Shown: positions 8,729 through 20,846 of the stretch, in pieces | Layout of the letters: each line of letters opens with the position of its first letter | How positions within the stretch are numbered: position 1 is the stretch's first letter | Assembly: GCF_028464145.1 (NCBI RefSeq) | Contig: NZ_JAQPCG010000006.1 | Span: 1-64,000 of the forward strand | Length of the DNA: 64,000 nucleotides | Direction: 5' to 3' | Origin: Maribacter sp. PR1 | GTDB taxonomy: Bacteria; Bacteroidota; Bacteroidia; Flavobacteriales; Flavobacteriaceae | Notes under the pieces: generated by a model | Told to the model about the DNA's origin: nothing | Seen by the model: the letters and a program-made list of their open reading frames with translations, nothing else | The model's database searches: none | Translations under genes and position numbers: made by a program

Positions 8729-9745
8729 ATGAAAGACATTCCAATACCTGATTTTAGGATGAAATCCTATCATCAGGTTTTTAGGCCCCAATCGACTATT
8801 TTAAACCTGGCCGCCCTAATATTTACTTTCCTTATTACATCCAATATGATTTCCCAGACACCTACGGACGCCTTGATGATGCCATCAAGAAACGCTTGTG
8901 TTCTACTTAGTTATGATATGGGCAAGTTTGACCGATACTATGAGGGGGATTATTTAAGAGGGAATCAGACCATTGCCACGGTCAGTAGAAATACTTTTTT
9001 ACCCATGGCAGCCGTGAGCATTTTAGAAGATCTAGACCTATATTTGGGACTGCCCTATGTAAAGACAGAATCCTCCGAACCTAACGGGGGAAAGTTCGAA
9101 GGAGCCCAAGGGTTTCAAGACTTTGTGGTTGCCGTAAAATACAGGGCTTTAGAAAAGCAAATGGGCATTGGTAAATTGAGCCTTCTATCCACAATAGGAT
9201 TCTCTTCCCCTGCAACAAATTACCTATCTGACTACTTGCCTTATAGTATAGGTTTTGGAGCTCCCGAGTTTTCGTTAAGAGGTATTGCCCAATATGATTT
9301 CAACAATGGTTTATATATAAGGGGTATGGCCGGTCATTTATGGAGGGGTTATACGGAAGCCGAAAGGGATTACTATTACAACAATGGTAGTTATTATACT
9401 GCATGGATGGATGTTCCCAACGCATGGAACTTTGAAGGGGTGTTGGGCAAATGGTTTTTCAATTATACCCTAAAGGCGGAGCTAAGTTATTCGGCTCTTA
9501 AGTCGACCAGTGGCGACGACGTAAGGTTCTACAATGCGGCTCAGCCCACTAATAAAGTAGCGTTTGAACGTATAGGTGCTTCTTTGCAGTATTATATCCC
9601 TTCAATCAAAGGTCTGGGAGTAGTAGGCTACCACAGCCGTGTGGTCAATGGCCGAAATACGGCAAAAATGGCAAACACTGGATTTGGACTAACCTATCAA
9701 TTCAATTACCTAAAGGATAAAAAAAACATAGAGGATGAAAACTAA
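8729..9745 (+). CDS. Outer-membrane beta-barrel transporter-like protein
   Basis: This 338-residue protein has an N-terminal hydrophobic segment (about residues 24-42, ILNLAALIFTFLITSNMI) ending near SQTPTDA, which serves as signal peptide. The rest is rich in alternating aromatic/polar strands (FSLRGIAQYDF, GLYIRGMAGHLW, YTLKAELSYSAL, TGFGLTYQFNY) typical of a 10-14 strand barrel of the MetA-pathway/'transporter' type. A second ATG (8759) would trim ten residues. The gene overlaps the next one by 11 bases, so the two are translationally coupled. A role in passing small substrates or products of the adjacent haloperoxidase-like enzyme is inference. Confidence 0.7.
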   Translation: MKDIPIPDFRMKSYHQVFRPQSTILNLAALIFTFLITSNMISQTPTDALMMPSRNACVLLSYDMGKFDRYYEGDYLRGNQTIATVSRNTFLPMAAVSILEDLDLYLGLPYVKTESSEPNGGKFEGAQGFQDFVVAVKYRALEKQMGIGKLSLLSTIGFSSPATNYLSDYLPYSIGFGAPEFSLRGIAQYDFNNGLYIRGMAGHLWRGYTEAERDYYYNNGSYYTAWMDVPNAWNFEGVLGKWFFNYTLKAELSYSALKSTSGDDVRFYNAAQPTNKVAFERIGASLQYYIPSIKGLGVVGYHSRVVNGRNTAKMANTGFGLTYQFNYLKDKKNIEDEN

Positions 9746-11273
9746 ATATATATTTATAACAGCGATAATAGTCCTGGTTATTGCAAATTCCTGTCAGAAG
9801 GATTTACCCCAATACACAGAATTTAAAAGTTATACCTACACCGAAAATGATGAGACCGGCGGAAACTGGAACCCTGTTTTGTTGGAAAATGCCACGGCTA
9901 TAGACATTGCAGCACCTGAAGTAGTTACTTCCACCCAATATCAAGCTGAAATTGAAGATTTAAAGTCGAAAATTGCAAACATCAATGGCAATCAACGAAA
10001 TTCAATTGATTACTGGACCAACAATGCCGTAGTACGATGGAACGAAATTGCATTGGAATTGATTGCCAAGTATAATTTGATACCAGGACCCAATGAAGAT
10101 GGGTCCTATACATTGCCCAACCCTACTAATCCGGATGGGCCACCAGCTTTTCCCTTTGCGCACCCACCCTATGCCTGTAGGGCATTGGCCTATCTATCCG
10201 TGGCTCAGTTTGATGGTTTAATTTCCGCATGGCATTATAAATATCAATACAATAGGCCTGCCCCCTACCAACTTGACGAATCCATTAGTTATGCGTATGA
10301 GCCCAATGAAATACCCTCCTACCCATCAGATGGTGCGGTGTTGGCACGGGTATCCAAAAATATACTTACTGCCATGTTTCCATTGGAAGCCGAGTATCTA
10401 GAAAAGATGGAAAATGAGCATTTGGAAAGCCTGTTGCTATCTGGAGGAAATGTCAAAAGCGATATTGACGCAGGGGTTACCATAGCCAATACAGTGTCGC
10501 AAATTGCACTGGAAAGAGCGTCCAATGATGGGATGAAGAATGCACAGGCTCCAAAGGCGGTTTCTGATTCCATAAAAGCTGCGGCCTTTGAAAGGTTTGG
10601 ATGGCAATGGGACAATCTTGAACTACCGGTGCGCCCCGTTGGACTAACACCATTGTTCGGGAAAGTTACCATGTGGAACGTAGATGATGTGGAAAGTGTA
10701 CGTCCTATTCCACCACCAGCCTTGGACTCCGATGAATACCGAGATGACGTTGAAATTTTAAAAAATTACGCGGACAATATGACCGAAGAATATAGGGCCA
10801 TTGCTAATTTCTGGCAAGATGGTCTGGGTACCTACACCCCACCGGGACATTGGAATCGATTTGCAAATGAATTTATAGTGGAAAGCAAAATGAATCCGTT
10901 GAGAAGTGCCCGTACCATGGCCTATATGAATATGGCAATCATGGATGCTGGAATCAGCTGCTGGGATGCCAAATACTATTACCACTACCCCAGACCGATT
11001 CAGACGATTCCAGGTTTTAAAACCATAGCTGGAACTCCTAATTTCCCCAGTTATACCTCTGGACATAGCGTATTCTCCGCCGCAGCTTCCGAAGTATTGG
11101 CATATATTTTTCCCGAAAAGTCCGATTTGGTCAGAGGGTGGGCAGAAGAAGCGGCTATCTCTAGGGTATATGGAGGTATTCACTGGACCTTTGATGCCAC
11201 TGTGGGTACGGACCAAGGAAGAAATGTGGCACAATATACCATTGATGTCGCCAAATTGGATGGTGCAGATTAA
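9735..11273 (+). CDS. Vanadium-haloperoxidase/PAP2-type lipoprotein
   Basis: This 512-residue protein has a lipoprotein signal with cysteine at about residue 20 (IANSCQKD). Near the C-terminus it carries the full three-part PAP2/vanadium-haloperoxidase signature. That is K413-x6-R420-P421 (KYYYHYPRP), S442-G443-H444 in PSYTSGHS, and S476-R477-x5-H483-x3-D487 (SRVYGGIHWTFD). In this superfamily the residues bind vanadate (haloperoxidase) or phosphate (acid phosphatase), and the sequence alone does not separate the two. The length (over 500) and helical N-terminal half favour the haloperoxidase-like branch. It should sit on the outer membrane or face the periplasm. Confidence 0.85.
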   Translation: MKTKYIFITAIIVLVIANSCQKDLPQYTEFKSYTYTENDETGGNWNPVLLENATAIDIAAPEVVTSTQYQAEIEDLKSKIANINGNQRNSIDYWTNNAVVRWNEIALELIAKYNLIPGPNEDGSYTLPNPTNPDGPPAFPFAHPPYACRALAYLSVAQFDGLISAWHYKYQYNRPAPYQLDESISYAYEPNEIPSYPSDGAVLARVSKNILTAMFPLEAEYLEKMENEHLESLLLSGGNVKSDIDAGVTIANTVSQIALERASNDGMKNAQAPKAVSDSIKAAAFERFGWQWDNLELPVRPVGLTPLFGKVTMWNVDDVESVRPIPPPALDSDEYRDDVEILKNYADNMTEEYRAIANFWQDGLGTYTPPGHWNRFANEFIVESKMNPLRSARTMAYMNMAIMDAGISCWDAKYYYHYPRPIQTIPGFKTIAGTPNFPSYTSGHSVFSAAASEVLAYIFPEKSDLVRGWAEEAAISRVYGGIHWTFDATVGTDQGRNVAQYTIDVAKLDGAD

Positions 11274-14895: not shown

Positions 14896-15798
14896 ATGAA
14901 TTTTATAGATTATTACAAAATTTTAGGGCTTGATAAATCAGCTACCGAAAAGGAAATCAAATCTGCTTATCGTAAACTGGCAAGAAAACATCATCCTGAT
15001 TTAAATCCCAACAATACTGAGGCCGAAGAAAAATTCAAACAAATAAATGAGGCCCATGCAGTATTAAGCGACTCGGAGAAACGCAAGAAGTATGATCAGT
15101 ACGGTAAAGACTGGCAACATGCCGAAGAGTTTGAAAAAGCTAGGTCGCAGAGACAAAGCCAGTCGAATCAAAATAATTATAGGCAGTATACTTATACGGG
15201 TAATCAAGAGAGTGATTTCTCTGACTTTTTTGAGTCTATGTTCGGTGGAGGCGGCGGATTCAGTGGCCAACAAAAATCAACTAAGTTTAGGGGGCAGGAT
15301 TATAATGCGGAACTTCGTCTAAATCTGACAGAGGTACTTGAAAATCATAAAAGAACACTTACCATAAATGGTAAAAATATTAGAATTACAATTCCTGCTG
15401 GAATTGAGGATGGGCAAACGATAAAAATTAAAGGTTATGGAGGTGACGGAATACAAGGAGGTCCAAAAGGAGATTTGTACATAACTTTTTCCCTTTTAAA
15501 CAATACTTCGTTTAAAAGAGATGGCGCCAATCTATATAAAACCATAGAAATTCCTTTAACCAAAGCTATTTTAGGTGGTGAGATTATTGTGGAAACCCTA
15601 TCGGGTAAAGTAAAGTTAAAAGTTCAGCCTGGTACACAAAATGGCACTAAAATAAAATTGAAAGGAAAAGGTTTTCCCATCTATAAAAAAAATGGATTTG
15701 GAGATCTTTTTATCACCTTTAGCCCCAAAATACCAACGAATTTAACAGAGCAACAAAAAAAGCTATTTGAGGAATTAGAAAATACCGGTCTTAAATAA
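14896..15798 (+). CDS. cbpA: Curved-DNA-binding J-domain protein CbpA-like
   Basis: This 300-residue co-chaperone has an N-terminal J domain (residues about 4-70) with the HPD motif at His33-Asp35. A Gly/Phe-containing linker follows ([16 protein letters not shown]), then two DnaJ C-terminal substrate-binding domains (about 125-295; [39 protein letters not shown]). The CxxCxGxG zinc modules of canonical DnaJ are absent, which places it with CbpA. It stimulates DnaK ATPase in the cytoplasm. The next gene, six bases downstream, encodes the CbpM-type modulator, which supports the assignment. Confidence 0.9.
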
Positions 15799-15804
15799 CG
15801 AAAC

Positions 15805-16098
15805 ATGAAAAATTCCACATTCATATACATAGAAGAATTCTGCACTATTCACAATATTGAGACTTCACTTGTTCACCAACTTGTGGAATTTGAAATATTG
15901 ACTCTTAAAAAAACGGATAATAAAGAAGTCATTGAATTAGAAGAACTTCCTAAGCTTGAAAAAATGGTAAGGCTTCATCAGGAATTGGAAATTAACCCAC
16001 AAGGATTACAAGCTATTCATCACCTATTAGAGCAAGTAAACAAGCTACAAGAAGAAATTTTGGCACTTCGAAGAAAGTTGAATCGATTCGAAGAATAA
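15805..16098 (+). CDS. cbpM: Chaperone modulator CbpM-like
   Basis: This 97-residue protein is predicted as a small MerR-like helical protein: an N-terminal part (YIEEFCTIHNIETSLVHQLVEFEIL) and a C-terminal leucine-rich coiled coil (LLEQVNKLQEEILALRRKLNRFEE). This matches CbpM, which binds the J domain of CbpA and blocks its activity. It lies in one operon with the cbpA-like gene. Confidence 0.85.
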   Translation: MKNSTFIYIEEFCTIHNIETSLVHQLVEFEILTLKKTDNKEVIELEELPKLEKMVRLHQELEINPQGLQAIHHLLEQVNKLQEEILALRRKLNRFEE

Positions 16099-16389
16099 TA
16101 ACTAATCCACATCTTTAATCTTACCGTGGGACCGTACATTTTACATTCAAACTGTTACTATTGGAAAGCAATGTTTTAGATTAAAAATAATCTTTAACTC
16201 ATATGGTGCTATAGTTTTTCCATTAAGCCAAACCTTGGGACTGAAAAATAAGGGGTTACTCTGATATTAGAGCGAAACATCCCGCCCACATTAACATTAT
16301 CGGTGCCAGTGTATCATTTTTTTTAAGACAAATAAAAAATAAATATTAATTTTATGGATTAACTATAAACCGGATTTTTTTAAACACTA

Positions 16390-17847
16390 ATGCTCTACAT
16401 AAATTTTGAACATCCTTGTGATCAATTAAGGAAATTAGCCCTTAGTTTGGGTGCCGACTTCAAGGAAAATCAAGATTCTGCAGTTTTAACTCTAGACAAT
16501 GAAGTAGGAAAGGGTCACGTAACTACTTACAATGTTTTTGAAGGTCTAAACGTAAGAGTTTATGACATTACCTTCAATAAAGAATTAAAAATAACGAAAA
16601 TGGAACAAGATCCTTCAGTTATTTATTTTCTTTATTGTGTTAAAGGACATTTCTTTCATAGGTTTGAAAATGAAGAAAAACCAAATAAAATATATCCCAA
16701 GCAGAACGTTATTTTCTCCAGTGCTTCCAACTCGCCTAATATCGTAATCTTCCCTGCCAAGATTCACATAAGGCTCAGCGCTATTTTTGTAAAAGAGAAG
16801 GTTAAAGTCCCCAACCCGAAGAGAAAAACCATTTTAGAGACGGCCATAGAAGAAATAACCTCTTTCATAGACAGAGACGCACCGTTTAGTTATTACGGCC
16901 AAATAAATCCCCTTACCGCGAAATACGCCAAAATATTAGTGGACAACACCAGAATGGATGCCGTGGGTAAACTTTTAATCGAAGGCGCTGTTGTAAATAC
17001 ATTAGCATCACAGGTAGATAGCCATGATGCCAATAAAAATGATACCAAATTAAGTTTTCCACTAAATAGCACAGAAACTTTAAAAATATCTGAGGTCGCC
17101 GAATACATAGCTGAACATATTGATCAATCTTTGACCATAGAACAATTATCCAAAAAATTTGGACTCTCTCCTAAAAAACTTCAGGCTGGATTCAGACATC
17201 TTTTTGGGGAAAGTTTGGGGAACTTTATAACTCATTTGCGCTTGGAGAAAGGCAAGGAATTAATTCAGCATTCAGATTTAACCATTTCTGAGGTTTGCTA
17301 TAAAATAGGCTTTTCAAGTAGAAGTTACTTTTCAAAATCATTTGCTGAAAGATTTGGACTTTTGCCCAGTAAATACAAAAAATCATTGTCCTCGGAAGAT
17401 TTAATTTACGAGCTAACTTATAAATCGACCATGGCCGATGCTATTGGCGCCAAAGAAATTGAAGAAATAATCGATGAAGCTTCTTCAACGAACGAAAAAC
17501 ATGATATTACCGGCTGTTTAGTGTGTCAGCAGAATAATTTTTTCCAGTTATTGGAAGGATCAAAATCAAACGTCCTTCTTATTTACGATAAAATAAAAAA
17601 GGACCCTCGCCATTTTAATTTAGAAGTGCTGACTAGAAAAATAAATTCCCATCGTTTTTTTCCTCAATGGAGTATGGCCCTGTTATCCGACAAAGATGAA
17701 CTTAAGGAAACCTTCAAAAATAAGGCTATAAACCTTAACCTGGATACCTCCAAAATTTTGAACAATGATGACTTGAGTGTTTCCAGTACTGTCTTTTGGA
17801 GAAGGGTATTAAATATGATTAAAGCCTCTACAACTCCAGACTCATAG
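16390..17847 (+). CDS. AraC-family regulator fused to a C-terminal BLUF photoreceptor domain
   Basis: This 485-residue protein has an N-terminal cupin-like sensor part (about 1-160; IYFLYCVKGHFFHRF) and an AraC DNA-binding domain (about 235-335; LTIEQLSKKFGLSPKKLQ, LTISEVCYKIGFSSRSYFSKSF). A BLUF domain follows (about 338-435). By alignment to AppA the flavin-sensing residues are present: Tyr344 (LTYKS), Asn368 (STNEKHDITG), Gln386 (FFQLLEG), Trp427 and Met429 (QWSM). Spacings Tyr-Asn 24, Asn-Gln 18 and Gln-Trp 41 equal those of AppA. It is therefore expected to bind FAD and respond to blue light, directly linking light to transcription. Targets are unknown; the gene stands alone. Confidence 0.9.
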   Translation: MLYINFEHPCDQLRKLALSLGADFKENQDSAVLTLDNEVGKGHVTTYNVFEGLNVRVYDITFNKELKITKMEQDPSVIYFLYCVKGHFFHRFENEEKPNKIYPKQNVIFSSASNSPNIVIFPAKIHIRLSAIFVKEKVKVPNPKRKTILETAIEEITSFIDRDAPFSYYGQINPLTAKYAKILVDNTRMDAVGKLLIEGAVVNTLASQVDSHDANKNDTKLSFPLNSTETLKISEVAEYIAEHIDQSLTIEQLSKKFGLSPKKLQAGFRHLFGESLGNFITHLRLEKGKELIQHSDLTISEVCYKIGFSSRSYFSKSFAERFGLLPSKYKKSLSSEDLIYELTYKSTMADAIGAKEIEEIIDEASSTNEKHDITGCLVCQQNNFFQLLEGSKSNVLLIYDKIKKDPRHFNLEVLTRKINSHRFFPQWSMALLSDKDELKETFKNKAINLNLDTSKILNNDDLSVSSTVFWRRVLNMIKASTTPDS

Positions 17848-17974: not shown

Positions 17975-17982
17975 TAATTTTG
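17975..17982 (+). promoter_or_regulatory. Candidate -7 box of uvrA (TAATTTTG)
   Basis: TAATTTTG is an exact TAnnTTTG match 17 bases before the uvrA ATG at 18000. No good TTG element lies at 17-23 bases upstream. If used, the transcript would have a very short leader. Confidence 0.35.
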
Positions 17983-17999
17983 CAACTTTGCCATATTCT

Positions 18000-20846
18000 A
18001 TGATCAACTACGAAGAAAATATTGAGGTTAAAGGTGCACGCGTCCATAATCTCAAAAACATAGACGTTACTATACCTAGGGAAAAACTGGTAGTGATTAC
18101 CGGACTTTCTGGAAGTGGTAAGTCTTCTTTGGCATTTGACACCATCTATGCCGAAGGTCAACGTAGATACATAGAAACATTTTCCGCATATGCACGTCAG
18201 TTTTTAGGAGGTCTAGAACGACCGGATGTTGATAAAATTGATGGTCTATCACCTGTAATTGCCATAGAACAAAAAACGACCTCTAAATCTCCAAGGTCTA
18301 CAGTAGGTACTATTACAGAAGTTTATGATTTTCTTAGACTACTATTTGCGAGAGCTGGCGATGCACATAGCTATAATACCGGGGAGAAGATGGTAAGTTA
18401 TAGTGATGAACAAATAAAAAAACTGATTATTGGTTCCTATAAGGAAAAGAAGATAAACGTCCTAGCTCCGGTCATAAAATCAAGGAAAGGGCATTATAGG
18501 GAATTGTTCGAGCAAATTGCGAAACAGGGCTTTGTTAAGGTCCGCGTGGACGGTGAAATCAAGGACATTGTCAAAGGGATGAAGGTAGACCGATATAAAA
18601 CCCACGACATTGAAATTGTAATAGATAGGCTAAAGGTCGTCGAAAGCGAAGATTTACACAAACGCTTGGCCGAAACCATAAATACCGCCATGTATAGCGG
18701 TGACGATGTATTGATGGTTTTGGAAGAAGGTTCCGACGTCCCTCGTTATTTCAGCAGGGACTTAATGTGTCCTACAACTGGTATTTCATACCCTACGCCA
18801 GAGCCCAACACGTTTTCATTTAACTCTCCAAAAGGTATGTGCCCAAAGTGCAGTGGTTTGGGGCACGTTTATGAGGTAAACGAGAATAAAATATTTCCAA
18901 ATAAGAAACTATCCATAAAAAACGGGGGTATTGCACCTTTAGGAGACTATAAAAAATCATGGGCCTTTAAACAAATAGAGACTATTGCCCAGCGTTTTGA
19001 TTTTGAGTTGACCGACCCAATCAACAAAATTCCAAAAGAGGCTATAGAAATTCTTCTAAAAGGTGGTAATGAGAGTTTTGAAGTGGATTCAAAAACACTT
19101 GGGGTCAAAAGAACCTATAAGATTGATTATGAAGGAATATCCAACTTTATAAAAAGTCAATTCGACCAGGCAGAATCAACCTCCATAAAGCGATGGGCCA
19201 AGGAATATATGGACAAAATTGAATGCCCTTCCTGTGAGGGAAGTCGCTTACGAAAAGAGTCCCTATATTTTAAAATTGATGATAAAAATATTGCTCATTT
19301 GGCCCATATGGATATTGCCGAGCTAGCGGAGTTTTTTGATGGACTGGAAAAGAAATTGGAAGGCAACCAATTAAAAATTGCCGAAGAGATCATAAAAGAA
19401 ATTCGTACAAGGATTCGATTTCTTTTGGATGTAGGACTGGACTATCTTTCACTTAATAGAAGTTCCAAATCATTATCCGGTGGTGAAGCGCAGAGAATAA
19501 GGTTGGCCACACAAATTGGCTCCCAATTAGTTGGAGTGCTTTATATACTGGATGAACCCAGCATTGGACTTCATCAAAGAGATAATTCCCGGTTAATTAA
19601 GTCCTTGGAATCACTCAGGGATTTGGGGAATTCGGTCATTGTGGTAGAACATGATCGCGACATGATAGAGCGGGCAGACCATGTCATAGATATCGGCCCC
19701 AAAGCAGGGAAACATGGCGGAGAAATTATATCAGAAGGAACTCCTAAAGATTTAAAAAATCATCATACCCTAACGGCTGATTATATAACCGGAGTTAGGG
19801 AAATAAAAGTACCAAAGAAACGAAGAAAGGGAAATGGCCATAAAATTGTTCTTTCAGGATGCACAGGTAATAATTTAAAAAACATCACGGTTGAATTTCC
19901 CTTGGGGAAAATGATAGGGGTTACAGGAGTTTCAGGTAGCGGAAAATCTACCTTAATCAACGAAACTTTGTATCCAATTATGAATGCCCATTATTTTAAC
20001 GGGGTTAAAAAACCAATGCCCTATAAAAAAATAAAGGGTCTTGAACATATTGATAAGGTAATTGATATTAACCAATCACCTATCGGTAGAACCCCACGCT
20101 CGAACCCAGCCACTTATACTGGTGTTTTCAGCGAAATCAGGTCTTTATTTACGAAAACACCGGAAGCAGCGATAAGAGGTTATAAACCAGGGAGATTCAG
20201 CTTTAACGTTAAAGGGGGACGTTGCGAAACTTGTCAAGGAGGCGGTTTACGGGTCATAGAAATGAACTTTCTTCCCGATGTATATGTGGAATGCGAAACG
20301 TGTAACGGTAAGCGCTTTAACCGTGAAACCCTAGAAATAAGGTATAAGGGCAAATCGATATCAGATGTTCTGGAAATGACCATAAATGAGGCCGTGGATT
20401 TCTTTGAAGCCATACCCAAAATACACAGGAAATTAAAAACGATACAGAACGTGGGTTTGGGCTATATTTCGCTTGGTCAGCAATCCACCACGCTTTCTGG
20501 AGGTGAAGCACAAAGGATAAAATTGGCAACAGAACTATCAAAAAGGGATACTGGAAATACTTTTTATATATTGGACGAACCCACCACAGGTCTTCACTTT
20601 GAGGATATTAGGGTGCTTATGGATGTATTGAACAAATTGGCGGATAAGGGAAATACAGTTTTGGTAATCGAGCATAACCTCGATGTAATAAAAATGGTGG
20701 ACCACGTTATAGATATAGGCCACGAGGGAGGACGTACAGGAGGCCAATTGGTTGGATCGGGCACTCCCGAGGAAATCTGTAAGTTAAAAAATAGCCATAC
20801 GGCAGAGTTTTTGAGGAAAGAACTAAAAATTAAAGCACACAAATGA
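18000..20846 (+). CDS. uvrA: Excinuclease ABC subunit A
   Basis: This 948-residue ABC-type ATPase finds DNA lesions for nucleotide excision repair with UvrB. Two Walker A motifs ([12 protein letters not shown] near the N-terminus and [14 protein letters not shown] in the second half), two ABC signatures ([11 protein letters not shown] and [11 protein letters not shown]) and Walker B motifs ([28 protein letters not shown]) are present. Zinc-binding cysteine pairs ([34 protein letters not shown]) are also seen. The ATG at 18000 gives the standard start ([19 protein letters not shown]); an upstream TTG at 17988 is possible. The next gene overlaps the stop by four bases. Confidence 0.97.

Follow-up and report, generated by a model that had tools for sequence, protein, structure and literature searches.

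AraC-BLUF fusion proteins of Maribacter and other Bacteroidota, candidate one-component blue-light regulators

Introduction

In the relevant parts of three published accounts, the BLUF systems described signal via enzymes or via separate partner proteins (PMC3915823, PMC5955987, PMC8805636). A reading frame of Maribacter sp. PR1, picked out in a preliminary description as an AraC-type transcription factor ending in a BLUF photoreceptor, raises the question of whether blue light may also be read out by a DNA-binding domain within the same chain. The frame lies in the window, by which we mean the whole stretch of DNA analyzed here (64,000 nucleotides, positions 1 to 64,000 of contig NZ_JAQPCG010000006.1, assembly GCF_028464145.1).

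Results

Domain architecture of the window protein

Since Pfam, predicted structures and residues agree, the window protein is confirmed to consist of a cupin-type sensor, an AraC DNA-binding domain and a complete C-terminal BLUF domain (Table 1), in the very order proposed by the preliminary description. Its Pfam matches are BLUF (PF04940, 92.2 bits against a curated cut-off of 25), HTH_18, HTH_AraC and a sub-threshold TEX47, with no PAS or LOV domain among them. The predicted structure (a monomer modeled with 7 sequences as input; mean pLDDT 77, pTM 0.63) contains an N-terminal jelly-roll regulatory/dimerisation domain, a two-HTH AraC DNA-binding domain and, in the C-terminal domain, the ferredoxin-like BLUF fold on which the initial reading had depended. 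The structural match to Tll0078 spans aa 338-479, C-terminal tail included, and the helices predicted for the tail are PixD/BlsA-like. An N-terminal jelly roll is common but not universal in the AraC/XylS family, and an AraC-type N-terminal domain may serve mainly for dimerisation.

Table 1. The fusion gene, its domains and its surroundings, in window positions.
Feature	Position	Strand	Remarks
DnaJ-type co-chaperone	14896..15798	+	Pfam DnaJ, DnaJ_C
Small MerR_2 protein	15805..16098	+	Pfam MerR_2, E 1.1e-23
Candidate regulatory site TTAACTCATATGG	16194..16206	+	Weak; about 185 bases upstream of the start codon
Candidate regulatory site TTAACATTATCGG	16291..16303	+	Same orientation as TTAACTCATATGG, 97 bases further on
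AraC-BLUF fusion protein, 485 aa	16390..17847	+	Single reading frame
N-terminal AraC-type cupin/jelly-roll domain and dimerisation helices, aa 1-212	16390..17025	+	
AraC-type DNA-binding domain, aa 227-333	17068..17388	+	HTH_18 at 253-331
HTH-BLUF junction, Pro326 to Tyr344	17365..17421	+	19 residues in 24/24 distinct fusions
BLUF domain, aa 340-430 (338-430 in a slightly wider delimitation)	17407..17679	+	Tyr344, Asn368, Gln386, Trp427, Met429
BLUF C-terminal helical extension, aa 431-485	17680..17844	+	Contains Trp470
uvrA	18000..20846	+	Pfam UvrA_inter, UvrA_DNA-bind

Distribution of the fusion

Within the genus, 9 of the 36 genomes carry BLUF in a frame longer than 480 residues, and all of these frames are full-length fusions. 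A profile built from 11 fusions was then run against the family and the class. In the family, where the top 4 candidates of each genome were scored (E up to 1e-40), it retrieved full-length fusions from 11 of 397 genomes, amounting to 14 proteins spread over 9 genus groups; in the class (E up to 1e-60), 3 of 395 genomes gave one, and of these G527 comes from another family. A phylum-wide sample gave BLUF matches in 46 of 395 genomes; among the 73 BLUF matches listed, four lie in frames longer than 400 residues, and all four are AraC-BLUF proteins (those of G527 and G000, and a tandem pair in G227). The architecture, which the preliminary description had proposed to seek in relatives, is thus found in further genomes of the genus, the family and the class. 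AraC-BLUF fusions form a rare but real family, the BLUF genes of the phylum sample being mostly short. Among named organisms, the fusion is carried by Maribacter flavus, M. litopenaei, Maribacter sp. 4G9, a Bacteroidia MAG and two uncultured Aquimarina. In G012 (locus L066, 7293-9346), the AraC-BLUF gene and a separate short BLUF gene converge, with about 150 bases between them.

Conservation of BLUF residues and of the junction

Residues were counted in 24 distinct full-length fusions of more than 465 residues, a set that leaves out L288, which has a short start call, and copies truncated at the ends of their loci. The Tyr and Gln that carry the photochemistry of BLUF (Tyr344 and Gln386) are present in 24/24 fusions, as is the tail Trp470, and Asn368 is present in 23/24. 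The early claim that all flavin-photocycle residues are in place therefore holds for the window protein but not across the fusions, where Trp427 is kept in 20/24, with F, I, P or C in the other four, and Met429 in 17/24, with Leu in the other seven. Of 98 stand-alone BLUF proteins recovered in the same searches, 93 have the Met, 92 the Trp427, 97 the Tyr, 95 the Gln and all 98 the Asn. Judged by these counts, the fused class keeps the photochemical core, with output residues looser than in stand-alone BLUF proteins. The Met429 position is needed for output in BLUF domains according to a passage of PMC3915823 (citing its reference 56).

The junction has the same length in every fusion (Table 1), and the HTH and BLUF cores flanking it are likewise of fixed length; variable are the sensor-HTH linker (26-29) and the part behind the BLUF core (42-49). 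Across nine Maribacter ortholog pairs, dN/dS of the BLUF core is 0.058-0.083 in three, dS being saturated in the other six, while values for the sensor (0.056-0.077) and the HTH (0.033-0.07) are computable in two and five of the nine, respectively. Because the residues are conserved and dN/dS is low in the few computable pairs, a functional BLUF domain is supported, with photochemistry as its presumed activity.

Two members of the class show local peculiarities. The second copy of the G227 tandem pair (locus L139, 1501-2952) has a BLUF domain without Asn368, His408 and Trp427, which suggests a light-blind paralogue. Between the orthologs of G029 and G030 (L007 and L005), dS is 0.21 in the sensor, 0.5 in the HTH, 1.87 in the BLUF core and 0.07 in the tail, and so strong a difference in synonymous divergence along the gene suggests recombination within it.

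Origin of the fusion

The phylogeny of 82 BLUF domains gathers all 19 fused rows in one clade as opposed to 63 others (support 98/97), and this clade is recovered in all 200 bootstrap trees. The very long row L275 was excluded from this tree; in a separate BLUF tree that includes it, 16/16 fused rows form a clade (SH-aLRT 96). With L088 and L289 included as fragments, and likewise without L275, the BLUF tree requires 2 changes, and the AU test of a single clade gives p 0.42; the single clade of 19 is obtained with the complete domains of both rows. For the AraC half, a tree of 72 rows unites 20 fused and 4 BLUF-less rows in one clade (support 100/99), and the remaining 48 AraC rows, which share the sensor family, fall outside it, the rows having passed a length filter that may have removed other AraC rows. 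The BLUF-less members (G468, G408, G261 and G034) stop at most 16 residues past the position of Pro326. An earlier AraC tree needed 3 changes, a number that rose to 5 when two more BLUF-less members were added; the present tree, with row L012 (genome G031) also included, needs 4. Before tree building, rows were thinned at 80% identity for AraC and 75% for BLUF, a few rows being added later unthinned.

One fusion followed by a few BLUF losses fits these trees best as the simplest account; since the inner forks are weak, other histories of fusion and loss may also apply. Because four members of the AraC clade are without it, the BLUF domain seems dispensable in some lineages. The window protein is accordingly a member of a family apparently born by a single fusion.

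Split AraC and short-BLUF genes

We considered and rejected the idea that the fusion mirrors a widespread split pair of AraC and short-BLUF genes, the pairing being nearly confined to the genus. There, 50 regions surrounding stand-alone BLUF genes (covering 51 of the 62 stand-alone matches) include 24 with a sensor-AraC gene, versus 0/20 shifted controls, and gene length and order make most of the 24 look like orthologs of a single pair. Beyond the genus, a sensor-AraC gene is present in 1 of 52 BLUF regions (G036; 53 of the 67 stand-alone matches covered) versus 0/29 controls. These counts are suggestive of a local pattern. Of the 13 non-fused rows that lie closest to the fusions in the BLUF tree, 7 are linked to AraC, but in the AraC tree the BLUF-linked genes are not sisters of the fused clade.

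Remnants of related genes occur in the genome of Maribacter sp. PR1 itself. A stand-alone BLUF gene (C18, 214375-214650; L060, about 9376-9651), convergent with a sensor-AraC gene, is broken by an in-frame stop, and in sister genomes the BLUF frame next to an AraC gene of this kind is intact, at 143-146 residues. A BLUF-less AraC gene whose score lies near the fused clade (C18, 339166-340230; L063, 6179-7231) is broken by several stops, and an intact BLUF-less AraC gene in G034 (L071) stands between neighbors similar to those of L063. In several Maribacter genomes (L064, L074, L065), genes for a short BLUF protein, a sensor-AraC protein, a short AraC protein, receivers and a protein judged by eye to be kinase-like cluster in what looks like a stress-signaling island.

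Gene surroundings and upstream sites

In the window and in the sister genomes G005, G007, G010, G029, G030 and G034, the fusion is preceded by the MerR_2 gene (which carries a stop in G029) and directly followed by uvrA, an arrangement that accounts for 7 of the 9 genus genomes with the fusion (not G012 and G031). We take the DnaJ-type neighbor to be CbpA-like and the MerR_2 protein to be CbpM-like; in L297 and L298, from genomes without the fusion, the DnaJ-CbpM pair is followed by another gene. Co-transcription of the fusion with uvrA is not implied, because a TAATTTTG element, presumably a Bacteroidota promoter, sits just upstream of uvrA (window 17975-17982; kept in 5/7 orthologs, with TAATTTCG in the other two). 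The chaperone pair and uvrA were also rejected as a family-wide functional marker, since neighbors differ in G012, in G031 and outside the genus. The Aquimarina fusion L028 lies next to a PAS-type histidine kinase and a sigma-54 response regulator, that of G309 next to a receiver protein and a Y-family polymerase gene, and those of G262 and G031 next to receiver proteins, so that two contexts touch DNA repair and three receiver proteins, too few for a conclusion.

The two weak candidate TTAAC-type sites upstream are both partly conserved, and only TTAACATTATCGG stands out: across 7 genomes it has 10 invariant columns out of 13, a value reached by 2 of the 299 stretches of the alignment. TTAACTCATATGG, with 7 of 13 invariant columns in the 7 genomes, is matched by 44 of the 299 and is not exceptional. 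The TTAAC pair occurs once in the genome, at the fusion gene, a count that is no independent test as the pattern was drawn from the same alignment. Within 400 bases upstream of ten fusions from other lineages, TTAAC-6-[AG]G has no match and bare TTAAC is found in four.

Elsewhere in the genome, two photolyase/cryptochrome matches are present, and a rhodopsin search gave no match, either here or in the control genomes. A plasmid search with P0001 matched 647 records, none over at least 80% of the query. The window also encodes a PAP2-superfamily protein (9735-11273) that is perhaps a haloperoxidase-like enzyme, since it matches a vanadium chloroperoxidase domain weakly, below the threshold.

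Discussion

We consider the window protein to be probably a one-component blue-light-controlled AraC regulator, in which BLUF acts directly on the attached DNA-binding domain. The cupin domain would mediate dimerisation and perhaps also sense a small ligand, and the AraC domain would bind DNA; BLUF would bind flavin and undergo its usual hydrogen-bond switch under blue light, a change that could reach the adjoining DNA-binding domain via the fixed junction, the C-terminal BLUF helix or both, and alter DNA affinity or dimer geometry. We infer flavin binding, the photocycle, the effect of light on DNA binding and its sign, the ligand and the targets, as well as the integration of a ligand with blue light predicted by the preliminary description.

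BLUF might instead photoswitch and bind or release a separate partner, as in PixD, AppA and BlsA, leaving the attached DNA-binding domain aside. We regard such an output as unlikely, although the PixD/BlsA-like tail with its invariant Trp470, the stand-alone BLUF gene right beside the fused gene in G012 and the action of short BLUF proteins through partners (BlsA-Fur, in the relevant part of PMC5955987) agree with it. The small receiver-domain proteins adjoining the fusion in G309, G262 and G031 could be such partners, but no receiver gene is among the immediate neighbors in the window or its closest orthologs, and the fixed HTH-BLUF length in 24/24 fusions is more easily explained by direct coupling. 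Direct light control is itself challenged by the loss of Asn368 and His408 in the tandem copy L139, and also by the Leu replacing Met429, the substitutions of Trp427 and the four BLUF-less clade members, the last three observations being such as would suit a flavin-dependent redox or metabolic sensor, or a structural dimerisation module, for which light is not the physiological signal. The retention of Tyr, Gln and, with one exception, Asn makes this quite unlikely in our view, and the Trp is not strictly conserved among BLUF proteins generally, as noted in a passage of PMC3915823. It is hardly credible that the fusion results from chance read-through or faulty assembly, or that the gene is decaying and functionless: the broken stand-alone BLUF gene and the broken BLUF-less AraC paralogue of the same genome show that genes do decay in this group, but the same full-length frame recurs in many assemblies and several genera, with low dN/dS where computable.

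Beyond direct control of the attached domain by light, a wider proposal appears to us possible but doubtful. The fusions would then be a distinct natural class of BLUF transcription factors of the one-component kind, which originated a single time in Bacteroidota when an AraC regulator was joined to a short BLUF such as those adjacent to sensor-AraC genes in Maribacter, with rigid BLUF-to-HTH coupling, joining light to a cupin-sensed metabolite and, in some lineages, controlling light-damage repair, the last element being proposed because uvrA adjoins the fusion in Maribacter and a Y-family polymerase gene in G309.

If direct control by light is true, BLUF allostery would be readable as DNA binding in one purified protein, the fusion would provide a compact gene switch for blue light that occurs in nature, and it would reveal how light is combined with a second signal in a marine flavobacterium. 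Ready comparisons are offered by the fixed junction, by members in which Leu naturally replaces Met and by those without BLUF.

The published surveys, in the parts bearing on architecture, place BLUF mostly in other settings. Bacterial BLUF proteins are 64% short and 34% with EAL, HTH fusions being named for LOV only (PMC4844311, section 10), and HTH-type DNA-binding proteins are quite frequent among flavin blue-light receptors generally (its section 5); of 1,048 marine BLUF homologues, 92.7% have fewer than 200 residues (PMC8805636). Passages elsewhere mention that some BLUF proteins are fused to transcriptional effectors, the AppA paper being cited for the point (PMC3915823), and that Aquimarina longa has one BLUF protein, whose architecture is not given (PMC4603819). 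The accessible parts of PMC9020721, PMC3546692 and PMC9614035 do not mention an AraC-BLUF fusion, and among the open-licence papers listed by text searches none was seen to describe an AraC-BLUF protein; domain databases may list the architecture automatically. Both halves thus belong to well-known families, and their combination is real, coherent and not met in the literature searched.

AraC, BgaR, RhaR, CuxR and ToxT match the sensor and DNA-binding domains of the window protein in fold and order; to our knowledge they end after the DNA-binding domain, whereas the window protein continues into BLUF. AppA, as far as we know, has no DNA-binding domain of its own. It is described as an antirepressor acting on the separate repressor PpsR (PMC8805636, in part), while here BLUF is attached to the DNA-binding domain. 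Compared with the short BLUF proteins PixD/Slr1694, Tll0078 and BlsA, the whole short-BLUF unit is fused here behind an AraC regulator, in a single 485-residue frame rather than a separate BLUF chain of about 150 residues of the BlsA and PixD type, and unlike BlsA, which acts on the separate protein Fur (PMC5955987, in part), BLUF is fused to the regulator. BLUF-EAL proteins (E. coli BluF, Klebsiella BlrP1) and photoactivated adenylyl cyclases likewise have BLUF fused to an output, but their EAL or cyclase lies C-terminal to BLUF (PMC3915823, in part), whereas here BLUF follows the AraC output. The proposed working principle is that of EL222, a one-component LOV-HTH protein that joins a blue-light sensor to a helix-turn-helix (PMC4844311, in part), although the LOV photosensor of EL222 and the BLUF domain of the window protein belong to different families.
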